A DNA stretch of 64,000 nucleotides from Diphasiastrum complanatum (Eukaryota; Streptophyta; Lycopodiopsida; Lycopodiales; Lycopodiaceae), in contig CM055095.1 of assembly GCA_029204225.1 (NCBI GenBank), positions 12,424,399 through 12,488,398 on the forward strand, written 5' to 3'. Of the stretch, positions 12,192 through 43,400 are shown in pieces (the first letter of the stretch is position 1; every line of letters begins with the position of its first letter). A program made the position numbers and the translations under genes. The notes under the pieces were generated by a model. It did not search any database and was not told the DNA's origin. It was given only the letters and a program-made list of their open reading frames with translations.

Positions 12192-15100
12192 GTGACAGAC
12201 CCACATTCTTCCCTTCCCTCCTCCTGCCCCTAGTTCAATCAGCCTTACACCATGCATGAATCAATTTCAGTTTCTCTATTGCAAAGATATTGAGCTCTTC
12301 AATCTCTGAAATACGCACTGGCATTCAATACTGCACGTTGATGCCCATCCAATCTAAAGCCTATGGACTACCTAGTGAAAGGTCTCTTCAATGCATGTGC
12401 CTTATCTCCTGGCAAGCATCAAAGGACAAATTTTGACTGCATTTTGATTCATTTTAAATCCTCATTTGTCCCCCTTTTTCTTGTAAAAATCTTCGTTCTT
12501 TTCCTTTTAGTTCTACTCTCTATTATCACCCAGTCGCTTGCTTTTGGAATGCGAGTAACATATGCTTGGCTTTGGAAAATATGCTTACATTCAAATAAAG
12601 AAACCAGATATTTTCTTGTCTCGTATCATATCTTCTTACATCTGCTGTCTGTCCATAAGTGCATCAAGTGCACAAGTTTGTCGGGCCTTTTCATATACAA
12701 GTATAGACTGAATGATGGGCACTAGACTAATATTTGGGTGTATTACCAGACTTGTCTTGACAGGTGATCCCGCCAAACTAGCTGCTGTTACAGAGGAGAT
12801 CAAACTTTCTGCAAGCGTACGTGGAGGCTCAAATGAAGTTGTTGGCATAGAAGCAGTTGATTTAGATGTGACCGCAGGGGAGCAAAGTGTTGACGCTGCG
12901 GTGCATAAGGCTTGGCTTGTGTTTGGTCACATTGATGTTCTTCTCAATTGTGCTAACTACTCAGGTATATAGTTACTGGGGATGTATCTTTCAGGCTTCT
13001 AGAGTTTATGCCTGTATCCAATGAAGAGGATTATGTTTCCCATCATATGTTTCATTTGCTCGTTTTCAGTTTTATGTTGATAGTTAAATAAAATGAGCAG
13101 TTTGGATTTGAATTGTCTACCTAGGTTTTAGCATGGCAGGAGACACAGTTATATGCATATTATAAGCCATTTACAACTTCTGGTATGGATTTTCTAGCAT
13201 TATTTTTAGCACATCATGTACCCTTTCATTTACATCTCAGTAGAATGGATATTTTAATGAATAGTCCATCAAGTATTCTATCTAGTTAGGACCTTTCAAG
13301 CAACTTGAAGTGATAAAATTGACATGTAGTGTCTTTTTAGTATTCTATGAGGAAAGTGGGGACTTGCTTGATTGGCTATGCTCTAAGTGCTAGCCTTTAT
13401 GATGAACAAGCATGTTTTTCAATTATGGAGAATTAATAGAAACTCAATATTCTTTGTACAAATCTAAGGAAGCGGGGGCTGGACGCAGACGAGCGTCCGG
13501 ATGCAAGTCCACGAGCGTCCGGATGCAGGTCCGCGTCCGGACGCGGACGCGTCCCCCATTTTTAAATTCTTTTTTTCAAAAAAAAAAAAAAAAATAGGCC
13601 CTTGCCCTCGTTGTCCCACATCCCCAAAGCGAAATAAAAACAATTTATGACCCCTGCCCCCCCCCCCAGAATTAATTATCAGAGGGTGTCTGGCAACCAC
13701 CTGCCCCCTCCTGTTAAAAAATAGGAAAACGGTACCCAAAAAAATTTGCAAAAGAATTTGCAACAAACCTAACCACTGCCCCCATGCCTCCCATGTCTGA
13801 TATCTACAGAATCGGACACGAAAGAGCAACGATATATTTTTTGAGTCTCCAAAACTCTGTCTCGTGCCCTCGCTATCTCTCTCTCCCTGACGAATCTATA
13901 TTATACTATTATATAAATACAGGTAAACGATGCGCTCCCCGGATGAACCTCAACAACTTACTAATTACTTATGCTCCACAATGTCATTCAACACAGGGAA
14001 GTTCAAGACCTACACAGTACCATGGCCTATGTGATAAGATAGGTTTAGGGTTTTGGGAGGTACAACGTCACATGGGCAACAAATCCGGGCAGGTACAATG
14101 TCACATGGGCACTGTGGGGGAGCAGACCATGGGCCCAATCGGAGTGCAACACGTGGGGGAGCTACACATGGGGGCAAGTACAGTAGCACATGGGCACTGT
14201 GGGGGAGCAGGCCATGGAGGGATCATGAACAACTGCACATGGGAAAACAGGCTGTGGTGTTAAATAGGCACTTACAAGGCTATTGTGAGAGGCTGTGAGA
14301 GAGCAGGAAGCTCGAGGAAGATGTCTGACGGCACAACGAAAGGCATCGAAAGTTCGAGGTGGAATTTGCAGAGATGCAGCGACAGGCTCGGCAGAGAAAT
14401 CCGGAACCGGAGCCACCTGCCCCAGCTGTCGAGCTGGATTTGGATGAACTTCACACGACGACAACTCATCATGGTCAGGGAAAGGGCGGCCCGCCGTCGG
14501 GCTAACCAGGAGGCAGCTCGGGCTAACCGGAAGGCAGAGCGAGAGCGACAAAACAATGCACCTGACAAGGGTGAGGAGTCAGTGGAGGATACATCTGATG
14601 AATTAATGTACAGTGTGTTTTTTGTGCAACGCGTGCCTGGTGTATTGCAATGTAATGTATGTGTTTATGAAATGCTATCAGGGGGGTGTATTTTTGTGAA
14701 GTGCATCTGCTATCAATCTGCTCTCAATTTTTGTGTAACTGTGTATGATGATTATGGCTGTGGGGTTTACTGTTTAGGGTTCAATGATTGGACATGATGC
14801 ATATGATCTGAGAGACATGAAGATGCGCTTGTGTACCACAATAGCTCAAGCATTTATAGTTTCCATACCACGTCCGCTCTCGCTCTCTCTCACTCTGTCC
14901 CTCTCTCTCTCTCTCTCTCTCTCATCTTGTGTTACGAGCTCGTAACCAGTGCCGAACCCTAGAGAACACAGATAGGTCAGATACCACAGTCAGGGTCGTG
15001 TCCAACGTACATGACCAACAGGGCAAGACAGTGTGAGTAGTGTGCCCCAGCACGGTCCATAGCCATGGCGGGCCTAACACAGCCTAGGGACCCTGTCAGC

Positions 15101-18100
15101 AGGATAGGACCCCCAGTTGGGTCCCGACGTGCAGTCCGCCACGTCAGTGCCACGTGGCCGACACTTGGCAGTTGCATGCTACCAGTCCTCACACTGGGCT
15201 AGGAGGGGCTTACTCTATATCAGGGAGTAGGCAAGGTTGGGTGGATCAGTTAGTGTTTGCCCTACTGTGGTGTTAGGATCTATTACACTGGTATCAGAGC
15301 CATCTCCATCCTAGGGAGTTCAGGAGCAGCAGTAGAGAAAGCTATCAGAAGATAGGAAAGATCTCTGAGTTTCTCAGAAAAGATTAGAGGAGGAGAATCG
15401 ATGTAGGAGCAGCCTTCAAACTTCTGATTTTCACTGAGAAATCACAATAGAAGGAATCAGATTCTTTGTAGAGGTAACTCGCTGGATAGACAGCTGTTTT
15501 TTTCCAGATTTCAGAGGGTTCTCTACGGATTTCCCAGTGGAAATAGAGTAGGATTTAGTCAGTAGATCCATCGCTGTACATACAGGGATCTATCTCTGAT
15601 TTCAAAAGGGGATTTCAGTAAATCTGAGTGGAGTTTAATCTGAAAATTCCCAACAGGGCCAGCGCTGGACAGGGAGGTGAAAAATAGGTTTTTCATCACT
15701 GTTTTTGAGGATTTTTCAGTAGTTTGAACATCAAACCAGATTGCCACAGACCAGCGACCTAAAGAAGCTTTCCTAAGAGAATTTCTACTAGAAAATGAAC
15801 TTGATAGAGCCTAAGAAGCCTGGGAAAGAACAGCAATGGACAAGTCCCTCATCCAATATATCTCGCAGTATCGAGAAGCAATTTTAAAGATTAAAAATAT
15901 GGATGATTATCAGAAAATCAGGGGATTTGTCCGTGGCCTCAAAGATGAATATAAAGTAGAGGTCCAGAGAAACTCGCCTACTACCCTTGAGCAAGCTCTC
16001 AAATATGCTCAAATCTATGATGATTCAGTGGGTAGGAAGAGGGCGAGACAGCAGCCACTTTCTGAGCAGCCTCCTCAGAAAGACTTTCAATTTAAAAAGA
16101 AATTTTAAAAAAGAAAGAATCAAGATTAATTTAAAGGTGAAGCTCCTCGAAACGCCCTTCACTCATACAGCCCTTAAAACCAGATGATTTTGAGAAAGCC
16201 AAACAAGAACGTTTGTGCTTTGTGTGTATGGGCAAGGGACACACAGTCAGACAGTGTCCCAAGGGGCCTTTCACTAAAAAAGATAAGAAAGATAAAAAAC
16301 AAGTTCATCTTGTTCAGACTGTATGTTTCTTCAGTGACTCGGCAGCTTCCGAGATCAAAGTGTATCATGAAGATCATGAACACTGTTGCCAGCTGACCTC
16401 TGCAATGCTAGCGAGACCCTTCAGCTTTGGGCCGCATGACCTAGTACGTATGCATGGGAAAGTTGGTAACCAGTCAGTAAGAGTTATGGTTGATGATGGG
16501 GCAACCCATAATTTCATCAACTACACCCTGGTTAAAAAGCTTAAACTATCAGAAGTACCTAGTCAGCATGGGTACATAGTTTCATTAGCTAAGGGTGAAG
16601 ATAAAAAAATATGGGAAACTATGGTAAGTAACTTGAATCTTGGTATTCAGGGGTACCAAGATGAAATAAACTTTCAGATAATGCACCTGGATCGTACAGA
16701 CATTGTTTTCGGGAGAGATTGGCTCTACAGTTTAGGACCTTCCCTCAACAGAAACTATCAGGAGAACACCCTCAGCTTTCAGCATAAAGGCCGAGAGATC
16801 CAGTTGCATGGGGAGCATGATGTTCCCAACAGTCCTATGGTCTGCAGTTCAGAGCTCTGTCAGCTAATCGAAGACGAAGACCATCAGGTATTCTTATGTG
16901 ACTTTCAGTTTATTCCTGAAGTTTCTATTTCCAGTTCTATTCAGCAGAAAATCAGTAAATTAGAAACTTTATTGTCTAAATTTAAAGATGTTTTTCCTGA
17001 AGATTTGCCACATGGTTTACCACCTAGCAGAGAGGTAGATCATGTAATAAACCTAGTACCAGGTACAGCACCTGTTTCTAAACCTCCGTATCGGGTCAGC
17101 CGAACAGAGGATGAAGAAATAACTAGGCAGTTAACAGATTATCTTGGGAAAGGCCAAATTTAGACCAATAGTTCACCATGGGCCTCACCAGTCCTATTGG
17201 TGAAAAAGAAAGAGGGGTCTATGCGTCTTTGCGTAGATTACAGAGCCCTCAATAAAGTCACAATTAAGAATAAATACCCTATGCCTCGGGCAGACGAGTT
17301 GTTTGACCAACTCGACGGGGCTAAGTTTTTCAGCAAAATAGACCTCAGATCGGGATATCATCAAGTCCGTATAAAATCGGAAGGTGTCTCGAAAACAGCT
17401 TTTAGGACTCGTCACGGTCATTATGAGTTTAAGGTGATGCCTTTTGGGCTCACAAATGCTCCAGCTACCTTTATGACCTTGATGAACAGTGTCCTCAGAC
17501 CATACTTGGGTAAGTTTGTAGTCGTATTTTTAGATGACATCCTCGTCTACAGTAAAACAAGGAAGGAGCATCTAAAACACCTCAGAAAGGTGTTTCGACT
17601 GCTCAGAAAGCATAAGCTTTATGCTAAACAATCCAAGTGTGAATTCTTCGTTGAAGAAGTAGCATATTTGGGTCACATTATCTCTTCAGATGGGATTAAG
17701 ATGGACCCAAATAAGGTTAAAAGCCATACTCAGTTGGCTGAGACCTCAGAATATTTTGGAACTTCAGATCTTTCTTGGTGTGGCGGGATATTATAGACGA
17801 TTTGTCAAGGAATATGCTCAGATAGCAGTTCCCATGACAAATCTTCTTAAGGGGAAGGGAAAGGAGTTCATTTGGGAGTCCGCACAGCAGGAGAGCTTTG
17901 ATGCTCTCAAAACAGCCTTAGCTACAGCACCAGTTTTAAAGGTCGTCAACCCCAATCAGCCATTTGTGGTCGAAACAGATGCTAGCGACTTTGCAGTAGG
18001 TGCTGTGCTAACTCAGGGTGGACGACCAGTTGCGTTCGAGAGTAAAAAACTCGAGTCAGCTCAGACTAGGTACAGTGCCTATGAAAAGGAACTCTTTTCT

Positions 18101-21100
18101 ATAGTTCATGCCCTTAAGACTTGGAGGCATTATTTGTATGGTGCCAACTTTGAGGTCCTGACAGACCATGAGAGTTTCAAATACCTTTGCAATCAAGCTG
18201 AGCTTAGAGGTCGGAAAGCTCGTTGGGCAGAGTGGATGCAAGAGTTTGACATGTCTATCAGATATAGACGTGGAAAATTCAATACAGTAGCAGATGCCCT
18301 TAGCAGAATGCCTATGATAAACGAGCTGAGTTTTACTGAGATTCGTAATGAGTTACTCTTGTCCTTGAGAGGGAAATGCCAGCATGATGCATTCTTCTCT
18401 ACTATCTGGAACTCAGTCCAGAGCAGACAGTTACAGACTCCAGAACCAGTTCTCGGAGCTGGTGCCAGTTCATCCAAGAATACGGCAGCTTCCGTTGAGG
18501 ATGATGATGAGTCCGAGTATACGTTGTCAGATGACGTTGAGGATTCTGAGCCTGTATTACCCAAGCAAACGCCAGTGGTTGAGGGTCAGTTGACTCAAGG
18601 ATTCAAATGGAAACAATATTCCATTCAGGATGAGTACTTGCTCTATAGAGATAGAGTATGTGTCCCCAATTCAGAGGATTATAGGCAGCAGGTCCTATAT
18701 GAATGTCATGACAATCCCAGTGCGGGACACCCAGGCATATAGAAGACCTATGAGCTTCTTCGTAGGCAATTTTTCTGGCCCAGTATGAAAAAGGACGTCC
18801 ACCAGTATTTAACCAGTTGCCAGAAATGTCAAGTAAACAAAGCAGAGCGTTTAAAGGCAGGAGGGTTGTTGCATCCCTTAGAAATACCAACTGGTAAATG
18901 GGAGAGTATCTCCATGGATTTTATAGTAGGCCTGCCTAAAACCCAAAAGGGTAATGACGCTATATGGGTCACAGTTGACCGTCTGACCAAAATGGCTCAT
19001 TTCACTCCGACCAAAACAACCGTTAGAGCTCCAGAGTTAGCGAGGTTGTTTGTAGACGGGCTATTTAAATTGTACGATCTACCTTCTGGCATAGTAAGCG
19101 ACCGGGACAGTAAGTTTACTGGGAATTTTTGGAGGGCAGTATTCCATCATCTCCATACTAAACTTAATATGAGTACCACAGACCATCCACAGACGGAATA
19201 CGTCAACAAGAAGTAGACTAATTGGGAGGAGTATCTCTCGATATTAAGGTTTGCTTACAATAGTACCAAACATTCAGCTACGGGATACAGCCCATTTTTC
19301 AGCCACGCTCACCCACAACTGTAGGGTTTAAACAAGAAAAAGTTGAAGCAGCCAGAAAATTTTTAGAGGACCTAAACCAGATGATAGAACATGCTAAGCG
19401 TAGCATTAGGCAGTCCCAGGATCGAGCCAGGCATTATGCAGACCCACACAGACGGGATGTGCAGTTCTCCACTGGTGAGAAAGTCTACTTGAGAGTCCCA
19501 GTTGACTCTAAAACCCTCAAATCAGGAGTGTGTGCTAAGTTTCTCCAAGGTATTGTGGGCCCTTTACCATCAGTAGGAGACTAGGCGAGGTCACCTATGA
19601 ACTAGAACTCCCACACAGCAGTAAGGTTTTCCAGTCTTTCATGTAAGTCAGTTACGAAAAGCCTTAACCAGATCAGACAATCTGGTAGGGGACAGTGTTC
19701 TAGTTCTCCCATTGGATCCTCAGCAACCTCCACATGAACCAGAGGAGATTCTTGACAGTAGAGAGATGTAGACTCGTCATACTCTATACCGAGAATATCT
19801 GGTTAAGTGGAATGATCAGCCTGTTGAGAATGCCACTTGGGAAAGAGGGAGCGTCCTTCGCAAGATTTTTCCAAACTTTGTCTTAGAGGACCAAGACGGT
19901 TCTTAAGGGGGAGGGAGTGTTACGAGCTCGTAACCAGTGCCGAACCCTAGAGAACACAGATAGGTCAGATACCACAGTCAGGGTCGTGTCCAGCGTACAC
20001 GACCAACAGGGCAAGACAGTGTGAGTAGTGTGCCCCAGCACGGTCCATAGCCATGGCGGGCCTAACACAGCCTAGGGACCTTGTTAGCAGGATAGGGCCC
20101 CCAGTTGGGTCCCGACGTGCAGTCGGCCACGTCAGTGCCACGTGGCCGACACTTGGCAGTTGCATGCTACCAGTCCTCACACTGGGCTAGGAGGGGCTTA
20201 CTCTATATCAGGGAGTAGGCAAGGTTGGGTGGATCAGTTAGTGTTTGCCCTACTGTGGTGTTAGGATCTATTACATCTTGCACAGAGCAAACCATTTCTA
20301 ACTAACCATTCAAATTTCACAGAGCTAACCATTTGTTAGCAATCATGATAAACTAGCCATGACACGAATAAACCGTAAAAAAATATATACATCTCATCTG
20401 ATGCCAGTATACATGATAGTTTGTGTGTATTAAAATCTACAAGTCTGTGCTAAAAAAATCATCCCTCTGTGTGCCAGATGCATCCTCAGGGGTGTCAAAT
20501 ACAAAGTATGGCTGGGAGTCTGGAGGCATCTGGGACTCCTCCAAGTCTGGGCCAACGCCTGCCAAGAGACGACTAGAAAAATCATCGGTGCGTCCCCTCT
20601 TGGCTGGCCTGCCTCTGGGTCTGCCAGAAGGAACCCTCTGTGGTACACTCCTGCCTGGGGGTCTTGTTGGAATATCAATCCACACTCTAGAGAGAACTAT
20701 CAAACAGGGCGGATAGCTCAGTGGTAGAGCATCCCATCCGGTATGAGGGAGGTCCTGGGTTCGAATCCTAGTCTGTCCATCCATATTATGATTTATGGAT
20801 TTCTAACATGGTATCAGAGCCAACTTAGACCTAACAGTTCATGGTGTCAAAGCCATGGTTAGGTGGCCCAAGTTGTGGGGCAGGTGACAGTTAGGACCCT
20901 AACCAAGTGTGGCTTGAGGGGGGGGTGTTGGAATATCAATCCACACTCTAGAGAGAACTATCAAACAGGGCGGATAGCTCAGTGGTAGAGCATCCCATCC
21001 GGTATGAGGGAGGTCCTGGGTTCAAATCCTAGTCTGTCCATCCATATCATGATTTATGGATTTCTAACAGGTCTCCCTCTGCCACGAGGGGGTCTCTGAG

Positions 21101-22452
21101 AAGAACCGACTGCCTGTGATGCTCTGAATCGTCTCTGCGCAATTTGTCTTTGGGCGGCAGCCTCTGTCTCCCTCGCAAACTCTGACCAGCCATCATCTGA
21201 AAGGGGGCGTGATGCGGGAGTACTGGGTGGGGCACGTGGACCATCCCCTGCAAGGTCGACCGTCTCGTCTTGGGCTCATCATCAGAGGAGGGCAGTGGAA
21301 CGTCAGCAGGAAGGGGGGTGGTCTCATCGGTATCAGCATCATCCTCGGGATCACCTCGCAGAGCACGCCGAGCGGCCTCGTCTGGATCAACCTCTGGCTC
21401 TGCCTCACGATCGGCCGCTGCAACCAGGCACTCAGAAGTGAATCATTCGTGAGAATAGCCGAAGCAACCGTGAGGGCATTAAACTGAATGTCTTAAACTA
21501 ATACGAAAGCAAACGATAGAGCATAGACATATACCTGCAAGAGTAGGGAGCCTACGCCTCCTGCCCTCATGCTGTCCGTGATGCGTCGAACCACTCTGGT
21601 GTTGGTGTTGCAGTACACCAAGTCATTGCATCGCTCAGTCGTTAGACGGTTCCGCCTGTTCGTGTGAACAAGGCTGAACACTGACCAGTTCCGCTCGCAC
21701 ACGCAAGCAGAACAGTCCTGCATTAATTGGCAACCACTCGAGTGAGTACCGACCTTGTAGAGAAAATGCGAAAACTGGTTGGATGAATGAGATTAGATAA
21801 CATTCCTGTGAAAGGACTGCGAGCGTCCTCAGGTCTAGCTGTCCAGCGCCGTAGCTCTCCCACCATGATACAGGCAAGAGCCTGTTCTCTCGGACATGTG
21901 CAAGGTTGTTGCCGAACAGCCCCAGACAGTGCTTGCAGTTGAGCAGCGATGTGCGTGAGTACACTTGAGCCCGCGCAGGGAAATTGAGCGAACGACAGCA
22001 TACGACTCCTCGAGCCTAATGCGGATATCAGTGTCGTTGCTGAGGAGGCGGATGTATGAGAACCAATCCACACGCAGCTCTGCATCGTCATACTGCCTCT
22101 CGCTCTGAAACAGCGGATGCAGTATGTGGGCCACACTGTGATGGGCCGGTGAAACTTATCCCATCGTCGCCGCCACAACCGCCTGATAGGCTCCAACCTG
22201 TGGACCATACCATGTGGAGGCAACAATTACATACCATTGTGTTGCGGCAACAAGACGAAACAGAGTGCGAAATGGAAGAAAGGATGGTGAGACGCAAACG
22301 CTGATCCCGTAGCGCCCCCCCGTGGGTCAGACTCGCAATCCCCCAAATGTGCTCGAACCCGAGAGGCGTTCCCTGTGAACTGCTTTCGACAAAAAGGGCA
22401 ACGCCACTTTTTGTCGGGCATCAACTCCACCTTATCCCAAATGGGACGAGCG

Positions 22453-28800: not shown

Positions 28801-31800
28801 AGTTGAAACCAACGTCACATTTCAAAGTAAACCTTGAAGAGTTCTCAATGTTCCACGTTAGGTACTCTTTATAACATTTCAACTAGCACTTGATTGCGAG
28901 AATAGATTTTTTGGAACATAGACTATCTCATCACTCATCCATGAGATGACTAGTTGTTGATCATTGATCTATGGATCTTACGTCAGATTGTCATGTAATA
29001 TAGCCAAGGTCGATCCTCTAGAGAATGAGAGTTAACGACAACCAAGTGGATGTAGCATCATGTAAAAAATAGTCCTATGTAATTTGACCCTCAACTCTTG
29101 CATTTCACAATGAAATTGAGCAAGATCGATGCAAATAAAAAAAATAGATAGATAGTGGATTCGTGCAACAACAACAAGAAATGGTGAACAAGTACCAGTG
29201 GTAACTAAACCATAAAGGGATAAAACAAGAAATAGCTATGTATAATGGTAGCAAGCCTCAAATCACGTCCTGGAGGCGATGGCGATACTACTACTACTGT
29301 TATCGCTGCTATTGAAGAAAGATGTAATACGAGCTGTAGTGAGGAGTGAAACTGAGATCTGCTGTCGACTTCGAATGTGAGAGGGACGTCTTCTCGTGGT
29401 TGGACAAATAAGTCTGGCTGTAGGGTAACGCTGGGAGGTGCACCGTCTCTGATCTCTATGAGAAGTCATGTGAGTTTGGGTCTGGTCGTGATCGCCGTCT
29501 GGAGAAAAAAGAGGTAATCTGAAATTGTGTCTGGAGTACTCTGACGCAAAGGCTGGGGATCTCGTCGAAATAGAAGCATCTCTCGTATAATCAATGCAAC
29601 ATAGCGTGGATCCTACCACAGGACGGTGACTTAGCCATTTCACTTTCTTACAAAAGTACATTTGTAAAAACGGTAAACAACTAGGACAGGGAGTAAGCTG
29701 TAACAACTGGATTAGGGCATCAAGGTACATGGGCGGGACTACAAACTTAGCAAGGATGATCTGGAACTGAAGGCTTAGCCTAGATCGTATGTGAAAGCAT
29801 AGTGATCTGTAATCGCGAGATACTGGCCTAGTCAGATGAGGTAAGACTAGTGTACCATGCAGCTGATGCATATAGGTTTGTAGGGAAACAATGGTGTCAA
29901 AAAGCCGACACTTACTCGAGGCATCTTGAATAGACTTACGAAAGTAGAATCTCTCCATCTGGGCAAGGGAAGCATGACCCTTCCCAAGCCTACTAGAAGC
30001 TGTCTGTATCATACTAAATATAGGACCAGCAAAAAGTGCTCCTAAGTAAGTGTAGGATGGAACAATCTCCAGCGGCCGATTGTCAAAAAGGAGCTCTTGT
30101 CTCAACATAAAGCTCCTAGAAGTGTTGAAGATCATCACTTTGGTCTTTCCAATTTTCAGCCCTAGGCCCCATCTGGAACAGAAATCATGAAGGTAATCAA
30201 TCTGCCTTTGTAACCCCTCCCTGGTAGGTGAAAGTAGAACCACATCATCTGCATAAAGAAGAATAGCGATCAAAGATGTCTCCAAGTCTGCAACCAGATC
30301 CACCACACTGCTCAATAACCCTCTCCAACTCATCAATATATAGTCCAAAAAGTGCAAGGAACATCCCTGCTTCACCCCAATAGTGCTCATGATTTGCTTG
30401 GAGATACCTCTGTCACTCTGAAAACATCCCAATACTTTCTCATAGAGTGCCATCACTGCTAGCACTCTGTCATTAGAAAAACCAAGGTCTCGTATCCGCT
30501 GGATGAGGAAGGAGCTTGGGATAGAGTCGAAGGCTTCCCGAAGTCAACGAAGCAACAATAAACTTGCTATGGTTGGTGCCAAGCTTCCTCAATGGATAGT
30601 AAATCAGCTGCATGGATCAATAGCTCAAATTCAAGATCATCAATATCTCTGGCTTTACTGGTGTTTAGTCTCTTGATGTCGTTATGTACCATATCAACAG
30701 TGAAGAAGGTGAACTTAGAAGGTCTAGGGGAGATGGAAATAAGTGTGTCAATATCAATGGTAGATAAGGAAGTGGCCTAATCAGTCCATATGCACAAGTC
30801 ATCGAGGAGGGGAGTGGGAGCACGGGGAATGAACTCACGCCAGAATGCGCCTATTGAAGAACTGTAGAGATGTCCAATAAGTTGTCTCTCTTCCAAACTA
30901 TCATAGGCCCGTTTCTTACAACGAAGTAAGCGGGTAAAGAGACGATGCGTGGATCGTAAGAGATGAGAGGTGTGTATGCGAGCATGTGTGACGAGATGAT
31001 GACACCATGACAATGAATACATAATCATGTCACTTTTTGGTGCTCCAGCACCATTGGATGAGGGTGGGGCCTTACCTTCATCCTCAGTGCTGTTGATTTT
31101 TTGCGAAGGCAAAAAGGCGAAAAAAACAAAAGTTTTGCTACTGCGATCTGAAATTTCCAGCAAACAGAGCGCTCAACAACTCAATATCCTCTACTTTCTA
31201 ATCGTAGAACTTAAATCTACTGCATGCTGGGATCTAAGGGGGTGTTAGCTATTGTCCACTATGATACTATGTTAAGAGAGATGTGACAAAATCCAAGGCC
31301 TAGCTATGGAGTATCATAACAACATAGTGAGCACACTATGAAAGCTTGAGAAAACCAGTTATGGAGTAGAAGACCAAAGCAAGAGAGAGAGGAGTTCAAA
31401 GCTCACACAACTTGAATGATTATCAAAGGAGTAGTAGGGTGTGGAAACCCCTCCAAACAAAGGGCCACATATAGCATGCAAATTACAATGTATAGAGGTG
31501 GTGTCATACTAATTCTAGCTCTAGACCCCACATGGGTCCTCAACCTACTTGTTATTACTTGCCTAATTAGCACAAGTGGGGTGTACTATGTACATAAATG
31601 TTTTACCCCCATGTCTTATGCACAACTTACAAGTTACAATTATACAAGCCTTAAGGGGCAAAATAGCCATTTATTTCAACAGGCCCCCCTCAATGGCTAT
31701 TTTGTTCATACCAACACCTAGCATGCTACGAAATTTTTCAAATTTTTCTCTACTAAGTGCCTTAGTAAAGATATCTGCTGCTTGTTCGTTGGTATCACAG

Positions 31801-34800
31801 TTCTCGAGCTGAATTTCTCCACTTTGTATCTTCTCTCGTAAGAAGTGCTGGTCCACCTCAATATGCTTCATACGAGCATGGTACACAGGATTTTTGGCAA
31901 GCTGGATGCAACTCTGGCTATCACAATAAAGAACAGTAGGACCATCCTGTGGGATCTGCACCTCCCCAAGAAGTCTCCTAAGCCATATCGCCTTGCAGGT
32001 AGCTTTCGCCGCTGCCCTGTACTCAGCCTCTGTTGATGATAAGGTAACGGTGGGCTGTTTCTTGCTGCACCAAGAATTGGCCCCAGAACCAAGGTTGAAA
32101 GTGTAACCTGTGGTCGACTTTCGATCATCCCTATCACCTGCCCAATCCGAATCGGTAAATCCTCCAAGCTGAAGCTTCCCGTCATCTGTGTACTCAATCC
32201 CATAACAGGTTGTCCCTTTGACATACCTCAAAACCCTTTTAGCTGCTTTCCAATGGGCTTCAGTTGGAGAACTCATGAATTGGCTTGCTACACCAACCAC
32301 ATACGAAATGTCTGGTCTCGTAGTGGTGAGATAAATCAGGCTACCTACAAGCTGCATATAAAGAGTCTCGTCCACAAAAGGAGTGCCATCATCTCTAGAT
32401 GGCTTTACTGCTTTGGCCATCAAAGCATCATATTCCTCCTTCATGGCAAGGTGCCATTCCTTCGAGTTGAGTTTATCATATACATCCTTCGGCTCCTCAT
32501 GAGAAATAAAATAAGCACAATCAGTGGAGTTGATGTCCACTTGCTTGTCTCTATCTTCAGAGGTAAGCCTTCTAGGCTCGGATCTTTCTCTTTGAGATCT
32601 CCTTGATGAAAAGATTCGAGGTGACTCCTCCTCAATTCTCGGCCCCATCTCTCCATGATAGTCTTCAAGGGTGATGATTGGAGTATCTTTCTCTTGATGG
32701 AAGCTTTACAGGTACTATGCCCTTTCCCTTGACCTTGTGTGTTGAGTTGTCACCTAGGCACACCTCTTGTCCATTACAAATCCCCACAAAGGTATCAAAC
32801 CAATCCTATGAGGGGTTATGTGCTTTGAAGCACCTGAGTCAATGTACCAACCACTTGTTGTAGCTTGTGAGGCCAATGCAACAGAAAATAACTCAGCTTG
32901 CCTTATGTCACTTTGCTCCTCTCTTGCAACACTCTCAACAACATTTCCTTCTTGCTTCTTTGTGCCCTTCTTTTGCTCCGCAAGCTTCTTCCTGCACTCA
33001 AAAGCAAAGTGTCCATATTTACCACAGTAATTGCAATTCTCTTTCCTTCGAGGTGCGGAAGAAGTACTCGAGGAGGATTTTGCTTCTGACATTTGCAAGT
33101 TCTCCATTCCTTGCTCAAGTGTTTGTGGTGCTCCTTTGTTCTTGTCTTTTCCTTTCTTCTTGTCCTTGGCTGGATTTTGCTTCTTCTTAGAAGCAAAGGC
33201 ATGCTCTTGGAAATCTTCCCTCTTGGAGAGATTAACTCTCCTCATCTCCTCTTGTAACAAGAGATCATATACCTCTTCATAGGTAGGGATTTCCTCCCTC
33301 ACAGATATCATCATCACAAAGTTCTGATAAACATATGACAAGCTATTCAGAACTATTGGCACCAAGTCTTTGTCAGCAATAGCCTCTCCAAGCACAGAAA
33401 GTTGATATCTAAGATCTTGAATCTTAGTAAGATGATCAGTAATTGTCTCCCCTGTCTCCATTCTGAGAGTATACAACTTGTTCTTCAAGTAAAGAAGCCT
33501 AGTTGTACTTGCTGTCTCATACAATTCACAAAGAATGTGCCATGCATCTACAGGCCCTTTGACTGCTAACCTGATTAGAGGAATCACATTATCCCTCACT
33601 GACATGTTGATGATCCCGTGTGCCTTTTCCCCTCTCTTGATATAGTCCTTGAGTTCAAGTTCAGATGTTGGAACAGGCTCGTCACCTGTCACAAGCTTCC
33701 AACATCCTTTATCTTCAAGAATGTTCTTGATCTTGAATTTCCAAATGCTAAAGTTAGTGCCATCAAGTCGGCTGGCTTCACTCAACATGCTCTCTGCAAG
33801 ACTAGACATAGCTGGATAGAAATAAGACACAAAAGGTAAACTGGGGTTTTACCCAATTAGGGTATGCAACCACTTGCTCAATAACCCTCAGCTTCTGGAT
33901 TTGAAACTATCCCCCTGTATGGCTGTCCTAGCCCTTGTCCAAGATCCACTCAAAACTTTCACTGAAGTCCCCATTGTAGAAAGCGCCCTCTTACAGTCCT
34001 AGCTGTCCAAAAAGACTCATAATTTTTTCTCCCTAATTAGAAAGTTTTTGGATTACAGTGCTCCCCTTGCCAACAGTACTCCAAGCATGCAGATAGCATA
34101 GAGATCAGATGCCCCTACAGAAAGTGCGCCCTCCTCAAAGATAAGCTGCTCTCCAGGAATGGCAGGAATCTGATTAAAAGAGGTCCAAGCTTTCACCACA
34201 CCACAAGCAACATAACCTGCTCTGATACCATGACAAAATCCAAAGGCCTAGCTATGGAGTATCATAACAACATAGTAAGCACACTATGAAAGTTTGAAAA
34301 AACCAGCTATGGAGTAGAAGACCAAAGCAAGAGATAGAGGACTTCAAAGCTCACACAACTTGAATGATTATCACAAGAGTAGTAGAGCGTGGAAACCCCT
34401 CCAAACAAAGGGCCACATATAGCAGGTAATGTAGGAAATAGAAGCCTAAGGATCCAGAATCTTAACTATTCAATCACACAAAGCATTCTCAAAAGAAAGA
34501 GAGAGATGGCTAGAAACCCTCTTGTAGAAACTTGTGGACAGCCAAGGAGAATAGTCAGTATTGCTTACAAAAGTGTCTCATACAAATGGGATGCACACAC
34601 ATATATAGTCCAAGATGACTATCTAACTTCATGACTATTGGCTATCCAACTACTTGAGTATTGGCTATCCAACTACTTGACTATTGACTATCCAACTTTC
34701 TATAAGTTACATAGAAAGAATAAGGTACCTCCAATATGTCAAGTTGGGGTACTTAATGTCACAATTAGGCCTAGTGGACCCATGAGTCCCTACCAAGTTA

Positions 34801-37463: not shown

Positions 37464-40400
37464 TAGGTCCCGCGGTACTGGGTACCGCGGATCCCGGTAC
37501 CGCGGGACCATACTGGTACCGCGGTACCACAATATAATAATATATTTATTATTTAATATTTTTTAAATTTTTTTTTACCTAAACCTACCCGCCCCCCTTG
37601 CATTTCCTCTGAAATTTTTTTGCGCCCTCTCCGCCCTGCCATCGCTGCTGGTTTTTCTTGCCTGCCTTTGATTCCTTGCGTCGCCCATCGCCCACGCAAC
37701 GCCCTGCCTTGCATCTGATTTCCTTTGCCCTGCATTCGCCCATTTTCAGCGTCTCTCCAACAGTGAACCTTGCTATTTTTTTTCCAGCAATCCATGCCTC
37801 ATTTCATCTGCAACGGTGCAATCCGACCTTTCCGGTCTGTGGGACGAGGTAGACATTGTCAGGCGGGTTGCCGACAAGGCCAACAAGACCGGTCAGAAGA
37901 TCGTGCGCTGCCGATACTGTCTCGTCGAGTTTGCTGCATCCCTCACTCGCCTTAAAGGCCATCTGCTCGGTGCACGCGCCAAAAATGGTGCCACCTTGAA
38001 TGCTGCCCCTTGTGGCAGCATGACCGTCCCCGACAGGCAGCGACTACTGGACACCTACGGGCCGCGGCTCGTGGCAGGGGAGAACACCATTTCAGAGGGC
38101 GTTCTCCGATTTTGCACCGCTCCTTATGTGACTAACCCAGAGTTGCTGCCTGCTTGGCTGGCATGCACGAGGATAGGGAGTGCATCCTCCTCCGGTCCCT
38201 TTGCCCCTCAGACAGTTCTGCCTCATGCACCCCCATCTGCTCAGATTCCGGTGGATCCCGTCCCATCGCGTCCGACAGTTGCCACTGCGGTTCCACCACC
38301 ACCCACTGTTGCTCGCACTCCACCAGTCTACGACTTTCTCATGGACTCTCCGCCACCCGAGCAGGCCCAGGATGGTACTGGGCGGGCCTTTGAGGATGTG
38401 GAATTCTTCCTTCCCTTCCCATCCGGATGACCTCCTCAGCCAGCAGTTTTCGTACCCCATGCCAGATGTTGCCCCTCCACCAGTGCACCCCACCTATGCT
38501 GCTGCACCCATCCCTGCCAGTGCATCCCACTCTCCCCATTCCACGTCTCCAGCCGATGCATCCACCAGCGCCCAGCCTGTCGCGTCATCGTCCATTCCCG
38601 TCACGGTTGGTGCACCGTGCTGGAGGTCCACCACCCGTCGTCCACCAGTGAGAGCCCTCGTGCAGCAGACCATTCGCGACGCGCATCAGCCGCACATGGA
38701 CAGAGAGGCCACACAGGCCGTGGCCAGTCTGGTTTACGAGCTGAACCTGCCCTTTGCCATCACCGACTCTGAGCCCTTCAGAAGGGCCTTCCGCCTTGCA
38801 CAGTCTGTCAGCCCTAGCTGGAGAGTCCCTAGTTCAGAGGTTGTCCGCACACACATGCTGAGGGATAGGGTCGAGTCCTTGTCTAGAGAGATGGAGCCTC
38901 TGCGTCGGCACTGGGCCACTTACGGTTGCAGCATCATGTCCGATGGCTGGACTGATGATGTCAGGAGGAGGCCGATCCTCAACATACTGGTCTCCAGCTG
39001 CATGGGCACACAGTTTTTGAGGGCAGTGGATTGCAGCAGGGGGGGGAGAGTCATATCTGCAGAGTTCATGTTTGATGTCATCAGGTCTTCCATCCTAGCC
39101 ATAGGCCCACAGCATGTCGTCACGGTGGTGACGGACAATGCCACGAACTGCATTCAGATGGGTGTACTGCTAGAGGCCGAGTTCCCTCATATTGTTCATA
39201 CCCCCTGTGCAGCCCACGACATAGACCTTCTGATGGGGGACATTGGAGCACTTCCCTGGGTTAGAGCCATCGTCCGGGAGGCCCTCTTCCTGGTGACTTT
39301 TGTCACCAGAAAGAGGCGTGTTCTTGCCATGTTCCGGGTGTTCAGCCATCTGGACCTCCGTAAGCCAGCCCCCACGCGCTTTGCATTCGACTTGGTGGTC
39401 ATCGACCGTTTGATCAGGTGCAGGGCCCAGCTTCTACAGATGGTTGCCAGTGATCTTTGGGGTGCCAGTACATTTCCGCACACTGAGGATGGGGAGCACT
39501 TTCTTCCACGGTGAGGGGAGACCAGTTCTGGAGGGATGCACAGACATTGTCAGGACTGCTTCGACCACTCTACATTGTGCTCCGCATGGCTGACAACGAG
39601 GGGTCGACACTTGGACTGGTGTATGAGCTCATGGACCGGATTGGACAGTTCCTGCAGCTACCCATCTTGCAGCCAGAGAGGTAAGCGGTACAGTGTTGCA
39701 ATTGACCTTTATCTTTCTAGTACTTGCTAGTTTGTTTTTCTGTCAGTGTTGAGCTTTTTCGTAATGCCCTAAACCACATGCCCCTCACCTGCAGGATGAC
39801 AGAGCTGAAGTTCATATGGGAGACGCGGTGGAACTACTTCCACAGGAGTATCCACAGCGTTGCACACATGCTGCATCCCCTCTTCCTCTCTCCGACACAG
39901 ATCGCAGACAGAGAGCTTGAGGCCGATTGGCTTCAGTACATTCACAGGGTGGGTCCACACATAGGTTTGGATCCTATCAGGCTCATGGAGGAGCTCGCTG
40001 CATTTCGTTTCGGCATGGGCACATTCGGCCACCCGGCTGCCAAGGACCCAGAGAGGAGGCAGCTACCCATTACCTGGTGGACCATGTTCGGTAGCACATA
40101 CCCATCTATACAGCGTCTTGCATTGCGTGTCCTTTCTCAGGTATGCATCTCATTTTATCCTCCATTTTTTGTGTTTCGTTGAAGTTTCACCTCTGCCACA
40201 ATGTGCTGAAGTATTTCAGAGCACGCACCACAGGACTGTGCTGCCTCCGTGTGTGAGCGTAATTGGAGCACATGGGCACTGATTCACACGAGGAGAAGGA
40301 ACCGCTTGTCAGTGAGTCAGTTGGAGCGGTTGGTGTTCTGTAGCACCAACGCACGTCTCACCAGGAGGCTTCCGACCATTACGAGCGCATTGCAGGTGAT

Positions 40401-43400
40401 AAGCTAACCTTTCACAGCATGTTGGTTGACTCCTGGTATGTTGGTTTCATTTCTTGATAGAGTTGTTTCTCTGACATGCCAATTTTAAACCTTGCAGACG
40501 AAGATATCCGATTTGGAGCGCCAGGTTGACTTGCCTACGGACAGCACCCATCCCATGCCTGCAGATGACCTGGGCACACAGTTGATGGCAGAGAGAGAGA
40601 GAGGGAGCTTGCCGAGATGAGAGAGAGAGAGCTTGGGCTTGAGCACAGAGAGCCCCCATTGTATGAGGCAGATGAGCCAGTGTCAGAGGATGAGCATGAT
40701 GAGGATGAGCCCATTCAGGTTGTGTTTGCCAGACCAGAGAGGGATGAGGCAGATTATACAGGTGCAGGGCACACGCCACGGGCAGGGGTCACAGGTGCAT
40801 CACGTGGCAGAGGTGGGACACATGGCACATGTTATACCGGCAGACAGGCAGGGCACACAGGGGGGGGCAGTGGCATACCTACCTATGTCGACATGATGGA
40901 GGAGGCTCTTGATAGAGGGCAGAGTGGTTTAGATGCCGGTCCCGCAGATGTTTGAATGCGTGCAGCACAGAGTCATGGCCGTTACTACGACAGCACACCA
41001 GAGGAGGCACCTGATGACTTTCATTGCACAGATTGGGAGGCCATGCAGGGTCTACAGGGTGCACATGATGAGGCACAGGATGAGGCTTGGGTTGATTCAG
41101 GGGTTGGTGCACAGGATGATTCAAAGGTTGGTGCACAGGATGATTTAGAGGCTGGTGCATAGGATGAGTCCCAGAGCCCAGAGCATTTGTATTCGGATGC
41201 CCAGCTGGCCGACTTGGTTGCCACATTGGATTCAGAGGCCCAGTAGATGCCGAGTGTCAGGGCGCCCCCATCATCTCTTGCCAGCATGCCACACACAGAG
41301 TCCCAGCCAGAGCAGCCGCATGAGGTGCCTACAGTTCCTCCAGCTCCTCAGAGGGTGTATGTGCGTCGCACAGCTCCTCCAGTGCCACCGATGCCATTTA
41401 GGCCTGCAGCCCCTCCATCGCCGTCCACTTCTGCAGCACCAGGTCTCCATGGCAGGCCACCATCTGTGCCCAGGTTTTCTCTTGCAGCGCCCACATCCAC
41501 AGTGGCTCCTCCAGTGGCAGCACCCACGTCACATCCTCCTCCTTTGGCAGCACCCAGGATGTACCAGTACCGGCCACCACAGCGCCCCTTTCAGTACATA
41601 TCGCCACTGTACTCGCCTCCTGCACAGCCAGTTCCTCCACCTGCAGCAGCCCCACGGGCACACACTCCACGAGCCCATCCTCCTCGCTCAGTTGCACAGG
41701 GAGTTCCCTCTTTTGCTTCCCTATCCCAGCCGGCCTCAGCTTGGGCCCAGCCTAGCCAGCCAGGTGATTTGCATGGGGGTGACGAGGCATTGACAGCTCC
41801 TCTTGTCCGCAAGAGACCAGGCAGGCCCAAGGGTGCACCGAACAAGAAAGGCAAGGCACAGAAACTGCCAGGGAGGAGAGGACGACCACGCAGGGCTCTA
41901 GGTACAGGTAGAGGTGCAGTATCACAGCTAGTTGGAGCAGGTGTTGTTGGTTTGGCCTGCTTGGGGGCTGATGCGGAGGCTGATTGGGAGGATGAGGATG
42001 ACGAGTCTTCCCCCTCGGATACACAGCCCATGCCAGTTCCAGACAGGCAGAGATATCGGCTGCGAGAGTCAGCTCGGGGCCCTGAGTTGTTTCCAGAGCA
42101 TTCGTCTGAGTCAGAGCCAGAGCATTGATTGTGGCTCCGTTGTTTTAGTTTCAGTAGTTTGTCTCTAGCAGACGGTCTACCATTGTACTCAGATGATTTT
42201 TCACATTATATACAGTGTTTGGCCTACATTATTTGCTGCACATTGTGCGTATGTCGCTCTGTACATGTGATGCTTTATTTTATGTTGAAGAATTCTATGT
42301 GCGTGTCTGAATCCTATTTTCATTTAATTTTGTTTGAAGTGAATGCTAGCTTCACATATATGCACCTACATCATGAGCACAACAATCACCCCTACACCCC
42401 AAACGACATTTCATAAACACATGTAATACATCTGCATTTAAAAAAATTACAGACATTGCATCTTACATGACCAGGCTCGCGTTGCACAAAAAACAACTAT
42501 GTATATATTCAACCGTTGTATCAGGATAACATCACATATACTGTCATTTTTTTAAGCAGCCATCTAGTTATTTGCTGCACCATAAACTGCCGAAAACTAC
42601 ATAGCAACAGTCCGCCACATACGGGTGGACCTCATCTATTCTAAACATCCCTCACTGATCCTCCACCAACTCCTCGCCCTCGTCTGGTGCATTGTTTTGT
42701 CGCTCTTGCTCTGCCTCCCGGTTAGCCCGAGCTGCCTCCTGGTTAGCCCGACGTCTGGCCGCCCTTTCCCTGACCATGATGAGCTGCCGTCGTGTGAAAT
42801 TCATTCCGATCTGCTCATCCAGATCCAGCTCGACAGCGGGGACAGGATCCACAGCGGGGGCGGGCGGCTCCGGTTCCGGATTTCTCTGTCGAGTCTGTCG
42901 CAGCATCTCTCGGATATTTGCCTCTTGCTTCCGATGCCTCTCGTTGTGCCTTCGGATATCTTCCTCAAGCTTTCTCCTGGCTTCGCCCTCGGGCTTCGGT
43001 GGTATGCGCTCAGCCATCTCGATCGACCTTCTCCTCACAGCACCCTGATCCTTGAACACCCTCTCACAGCACCCTGGCTCTCAAACAGCCTCTCACAGCC
43101 TGTCACCGGCTCTCGCTTGCTCTCTCACTGTCTATCACTAGCCCTCTCACAGCCTCTGAAAATGCCGACCACAATGGCATTGTGAGTGCCTATTTATCCC
43201 CACAGCCTGATCGGCCATGTGGATCCCCATCATCCCTCCATGTGCCTCTGTACCTGCCCCCATGTGATGCTCCCCCCTGTGTTGGTCTCCCATTGGGCCC
43301 ATGGTCTGCTCACCCACAATGCCCATGTGCCTCTGTACTTGCCCCCATGTGATGCTACCCCCCTGTGTTGGTCTCCCATTGGCCCCTCGGTCTGCTCACT

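Follow-up and report, generated by a model that had tools for sequence, protein, structure and literature searches.

A tRNA-like block, probably a Pol III promoter, in the long terminal repeats of a dispersed TRIM family of the clubmoss Diphasiastrum complanatum

Terminal-repeat retrotransposons in miniature (TRIMs) whose long terminal repeats (LTRs) hold tRNA-derived sequence were named Helenus by Kojima in 2024 and were placed, together with Cassandra and Ajax, in the group TRIMp3 (PMC10886601); Helenus is also mentioned in PMC12859917. The Helenus hosts listed are fungi, animals and one plant, Selaginella moellendorffii, whose family Helenus-1_SMo has an LTR of 120 bp, an internal part of 85 bp and 5-bp duplications; Helenus elements range from 311 to 1263 bp, target site duplications (TSDs) of 5 bp are given for plant and fungal members, and mobilization by Copia elements has been argued for the fungal ones (PMC10886601). 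Here we describe an element of this kind from a 64-kb stretch of D. complanatum DNA (the whole of which we call the window), namely a 405-bp TRIM at 20665..21069 that consists of two 144-nt LTRs and a 117-nt internal part, and that carries in each LTR a 73-nt tRNA-like block which probably serves as the element's own start switch.

As far as the published description allows a comparison, this TRIM falls within the Helenus size range, is likewise non-coding and shares with Helenus the tRNA-derived sequence with A and B boxes in both LTRs, a primer-binding site (PBS) and a polypurine tract (PPT) at the ends of the internal part, 5-bp TSDs (exact in 14 of 18 distinct full insertions), a dispersed multi-copy state and the occurrence of tandem arrays, which are reported for the Helenus family LTR-11_DR (PMC10886601). 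It differs from Helenus-1_SMo, compared by description only, in the lengths of LTR and internal part (144 and 117 bp versus 120 and 85 bp) and in its host. On these sequence characters the clubmoss family is an additional member of the Helenus kind, distinct from the Selaginella family in size and host. The idea of a TRIM with a tRNA promoter has been known since 2024 and our finding is a modest surprise for a specialist; among the matches listed in the literature searched, with Repbase outside its scope, we found no plant report of a TRIM with tRNA in its LTRs besides that from Selaginella, and to our knowledge the present family is probably the second case in plants of a TRIM carrying an RNA polymerase III (Pol III) promoter of the tRNA type.

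The initial annotation had compared the element with Cassandra, as a TRIM that reached Pol III transcription by another route. The anatomy and the genomic copies uphold this analogy, whereas the novelty that it implied does not stand, such elements having been named as Helenus and TRIMp3 in 2024 (PMC10886601). Both are plant TRIMs devoid of coding sequence with a Pol III-type promoter in their LTRs, and both form tandem arrays (for Cassandra, PMC7215508), but the LTR of Cassandra contains 5S rRNA sequence rather than tRNA, and the clubmoss TRIM has no run of four T residues in 17 of its 18 distinct full elements. Identity with Cassandra was ruled out, as no 5S family match was found by Rfam in the window. 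The element also resembles tRNA-derived short interspersed nuclear elements (SINEs) in being short and non-coding with a tRNA-derived internal promoter, but it is bounded by LTRs and has a PBS, a PPT and a 5-bp TSD; because of this anatomy we infer movement by the machinery of LTR retrotransposons and not of long interspersed nuclear elements.

The structure first proposed for the locus, an intact TRIM with 144-bp LTRs, primer site, polypurine tract and GGTCT duplication, was confirmed to the base. The two copies of GGTCT, to which no strand is assigned, lie at 20660..20664 and 21070..21074. Between them, all on the forward strand, are the 5′ LTR (20665..20808, TG...CA), the internal region (20809..20925), which starts with TGGTATCAGAGCCA and ends with GGCTTGAGGGGGGGG, and the 3′ LTR (20926..21069). 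The LTRs are identical at 142 of 144 positions and differ at LTR position 99 (G/A), within the B box, and at position 123 (T/C). Directly 3′ of the 5′ LTR is the PBS TGGTATCAGAGCCA (20809..20822), which we take to be of the initiator-Met tRNA type, and the PPT region (20911..20925) ends in GAGGGGGGGG. The element has no coding capacity, its longest stop-free stretch being 46 codons.

To count copies, the 5′ LTR of the window was used as a query against the 1.74-Gb host assembly. At least 42 LTR matches were found and at least 40 of these, the window's own among them, were identical at 144 of 144 positions; both counts are lower bounds, because 40 of the 1485 first-look candidates were scored. 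We retrieved 39 other loci with an identical LTR, which together with the window gave a set of 40 loci (labelled L0xx). Automatic sorting assigned 22 of these as full-length, seven as tandem or complex, two as solo LTRs and nine as partial, the last including one locus (L028) that is a single base short at an LTR end. At this stage, before removal of duplicates, an exact 5-bp TSD was present in 18 of the 22 full-length loci and in one of the two solo LTRs. Four full-length loci were then dropped as duplicates on the basis of shared flanks, leaving 18 distinct full insertions, the window counted. Their TSDs were exact in 14 cases, all different from one another, with one mismatch in three and absent in one, and their PBS start, TGGTATCAGAGCCA, was exact in 15 and carried one change in three. 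The LTR pairs of equal length (16 of the 18) differed at 1–4 of 144 sites, with a mean of 2.25, and because of this low divergence the insertions look young. Head-to-tail arrays also occur, as in locus L009, where five LTRs alternate with four internal parts (468-1644); one LTR block in this array is read by ARAGORN as tRNA-Ile. In a sample of 20 × 10 kb, covering 200,000 bases of the genome (8942 of them N), there was no TRIM copy, which bounds the density only loosely.

These data show that the element is a mobile, dispersed, multi-copy family and not a chance capture, because distinct copies are flanked by different exact TSDs. A chance repeat or an assembly duplicate was likewise ruled out by the TSDs and the dispersed copies. 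The genome search for copies with the same LTR had been proposed in the initial annotation, which would have accepted chance capture had there been no other copies or had the block been scrambled; with at least 40 identical LTRs and 18 distinct full insertions, neither was found, and ARAGORN called 71 tRNA-Thr(ggt), two tRNA-Ile and one tRNA-Pro across the 40 loci, which were themselves picked by identity to the window LTR. The same calls carry a warning for annotation, since two spurious tRNA-Thr-GGT genes will typically be predicted for each full copy.

In the window itself, ARAGORN found two tRNA matches, one per LTR and both tRNA-Thr-GGT, at 20707..20779 in the 5′ LTR and 20968..21040 in the 3′ LTR. 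Each block scored 49.8 bits with Rfam RF00005 (gathering score 29; E value approx. 1e-7 for 64 kb), and no other Rfam family reached its gathering score in the window. The 5′ block holds an A box, TAGCTCAGTGG (20714..20724), and a B box, GGTTCGAATCC (20758..20768), the B box of the 3′ block being GGTTCAAATCC. Two pairs of A and B boxes at tRNA spacing were found in the window, both in the LTRs of the TRIM, and none in 60 simulated order-1 Markov windows; as the box consensus was drawn up after the element had been seen, the Rfam score offers the more impartial test. The presence of a 73-nt tRNA-like block with both boxes in each LTR, as originally noted, is borne out.

The description of the block as a full-length tRNA-like gene holds for its length and needs qualification otherwise. 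Its acceptor, D and T arms are completely paired, but the anticodon arm is defective, with C in place of U at position 33 and A opposite A at positions 30 and 40, and the Thr call depends on that very loop. We compiled two sets of LTRs, 62 from non-duplicate loci and 73 with duplicates included. In the former, C33, A30 and A40 were invariant (62 of 62 each), so that an intact anticodon arm with U33, as expected of a functional tRNA, was found in none of them; in the larger set C33 and A30 were both present in all 73. Since these defects occur in every LTR examined, the block is, judged by these positions, not a working tRNA, and since positions 30, 33 and 40 never vary among the 62 LTRs, the master copy that was amplified would already have held a tRNA hardly able to serve translation. 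The promoter boxes are largely retained: 53 of the 62 LTRs have an exact A box and 57 have a B box that matches GGTTCRANNCC, the corresponding figures in the larger set being 62 and 67 of 73.

Plant tRNA genes have a TATA-like upstream element and a CAA near the start site. The LTR contains AATAT, a TATA-like motif, 36 nt 5′ of the block (20671..20675, + strand) and CAA 6 nt 5′ of it (20701..20703, + strand), which we presume to be the counterparts of these features.

Taken together, these observations make it likely, in our judgement, that the element is a young, non-autonomous TRIM of the Helenus/TRIMp3 type, dispersed in the genome and driven by Pol III, in which the block has been retained for its promoter and not as a tRNA, since none of the copies examined has an intact anticodon arm. 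The LTRs with their promoter boxes and low divergence, the PBS, the PPT, the duplications and the multiplicity are all observed. From these a cycle can be proposed in which the two boxes in the 5′ LTR would recruit Pol III, which would start just 5′ of the block, near 20701-20707 (LTR positions approx. 37–43), and the transcript would cross the internal part and extend into the 3′ LTR. Both ends of the RNA would then contain the block and the tail of the LTR, a repeated stretch that could act as the R region. First-strand synthesis would be primed at the PBS and second-strand synthesis at the PPT by enzymes of an autonomous element, perhaps a Copia, and the product would be integrated with the 5-bp target duplication that we observe. 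With so many near-identical recent copies, the claim of Pol III transcription made for TRIMp3, and the way in which the RNA ends, become directly testable.

Several results weigh against a Pol III-driven element, and the main difficulty is termination. No TTTT occurs in the window element, the first one lying at 22408, 1338 bp downstream, and a T4 run is absent from 17 of the 18 distinct full elements; the next TTTT is 24–1338 bp downstream in 14 of the 18, with none in the retrieved stretch for the other four. This absence speaks against Pol III transcription in its simplest form and contrasts with Cassandra, for which conserved Pol III terminators are described (PMC7215508). In addition, changes within the LTRs are no rarer in the block than outside it (49 of 71 fall within it in the set of 62 LTRs and 57 of 83 in the larger set, the block making up 51% of the LTR), and for this reason the young copies show no selection on the promoter boxes; we read the pattern of change in the block as neutral decay after insertion. 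The larger set has 70 substitutions, of which 42 are G>A or C>T, and these we read as the ordinary decay of methylated DNA. Conservation is moreover biased upwards, because the LTRs were selected by identity to the 5′ LTR of the window. Finally, the block folds alone into a cloverleaf that is no more stable than shuffled sequences (z = −0.55 and −0.91 for the two blocks), a result that also qualifies the label of a full-length tRNA gene.

The alternative that survives best, which we nevertheless consider rather unlikely, is an ordinary TRIM transcribed by Pol II, with a tRNA or tRNA-type SINE that landed in the LTR of the master copy and has since been carried passively. In its favour are the lack of a T4 terminator in nearly all full elements, the changes not depleted in the block and the faulty anticodon arm of every LTR inspected. 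Yet the A and B boxes have remained intact at the correct spacing although the anticodon arm was lost, and the TATA-like and CAA motifs are placed as in plant tRNA genes, if their role is as we presume. The same architecture, moreover, recurs in fungi, animals and a lycophyte (PMC10886601).

A broader proposal, speculative and to our mind doubtful, is that TRIMs with tRNA promoters form an old lineage common to Lycopodiaceae and Selaginellaceae, and that the clubmoss family multiplies with no Pol III terminator of the canonical form. Without such a terminator the template RNA would have to end by another signal, either the hairpin in the LTR tail followed by TTTCT or a tRNA-type processing event; if so, this would be a Pol III retroelement whose 3′ end is formed in a non-standard way. 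Independently of this proposal, the hairpin (20779..20800, + strand) has a 7-bp stem that runs into TTTCT, with z scores of −2.5 and −2.1 in the two LTRs (matched by 3 and 11 of 200 shuffles), and as a guess from this folding model it might be a weak end signal.

Processing forms the core of a further explanation, namely that the tRNA-like fold is used not to start but to finish the RNA, with RNase Z cutting after the block of the 3′ LTR and so setting the 3′ end of a terminator-less transcript. The full pairing of the acceptor, D and T arms speaks for this, and the absence of T4 runs from 17 of the 18 distinct full elements implies that some other 3′-end signal may be needed. We think it very unlikely all the same: the near-identical block of the 5′ LTR would also be cut, which would remove the repeated R sequence, folding of the full 144-nt LTR gives a minimum-energy structure other than the cloverleaf, and the tail hairpin into TTTCT offers an alternative end. 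That the locus is two real tandem tRNA-Thr genes, as the two ARAGORN calls might suggest, or a chance capture at one place can be virtually dismissed, as a genuine tRNA gene pair is ruled out by C33 and A30-A40, and the TSD, PBS, PPT and dispersed copies with 14 different exact TSDs speak against both.

Returning to the Pol III-driven TRIM, we compared the element with its neighbours for a possible mobilizing partner. The PBS and the PPT/LTR start are alike in type to those of the Copia element of the window (TGTTGRAATA, GAGGGGGG), with short matches of E value 0.07 and 0.25, and the Gypsy element of the window matches the PBS region of the TRIM too (E value 0.07); the case for a Copia as partner is weak. 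For the parent tRNA, the LTR matched 16 plasmid records, of which 10 were listed, and in all 10 the match lay within LTR positions 43–118, a span that coincides with the tRNA-like block to within 3 bases. Three of the 16 matches were inspected and are tRNA-Ala-TGC, tRNA-Thr-CGT and tRNA-Thr-GGT genes. No match to the LTR was found in E. coli genomes, the exact block pattern had no occurrence in databases of viral contigs and genome contigs, and the PPT/LTR pattern had none in the viral contigs, both as expected for a plant element. No candidate was found in the protein database with the LTR read in antisense.

The Copia element just mentioned lies at approx. 31280-34430 on the minus strand, with LTR pieces that are 92% identical and a gag domain; its 3′ LTR begins TGTTGAAATA after GAGGGGGGCC, similar in type to the TRIM. 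The Gypsy element (approx. 14930-20275) has 300-nt LTR pieces of 98% identity, frames for an aspartyl protease and for reverse transcriptase/RNase H, an initiator-Met-type PBS and, by eye, an apparent TCTTG duplication, its nearest named protein relatives being from the fern Adiantum nelumboides.

Two loci, L015 (830-952) and L035 (833-955), hold a TRIM variant in which 7 bp are inserted directly 3′ of the PBS, as seen in the alignment of L015, and have approx. 1.6 kb in common at 99.9%. Around the window TRIM, approx. 1.5 kb with the TRIM included is duplicated in inverted orientation on the same contig approx. 2 Mb away (locus L039, C4:10441100-10442700; 1518 bases at 99.9%).

The TRIM adjoins hAT-related sequence on the minus strand (approx. 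21075-22226), and this right flank resembles the other hAT-like gene of the window (33% over 190 residues, E value 8e-21), which lies at 37672-42128 and has DUF659 in the part 38177-39514 and C-terminal AT-hook-like motifs. The frame 21723-22226 had no Pfam match. When the flanks were joined to restore the empty site, the AT-hook-like motifs RGRP and GRPRGRP fell to either side of the join within a single frame, and all three minus-strand frames were open across it (200, 66 and 142 codons); the frame evidence for insertion is weak, because the region is poor in stops and all three frames are open. Lastly, inverted repeat pieces of 118–154 nt, 80–90% complementary and 28–29 kb apart, at 14076-14590 and 42658-43355, suggest a further dispersed element in the window.
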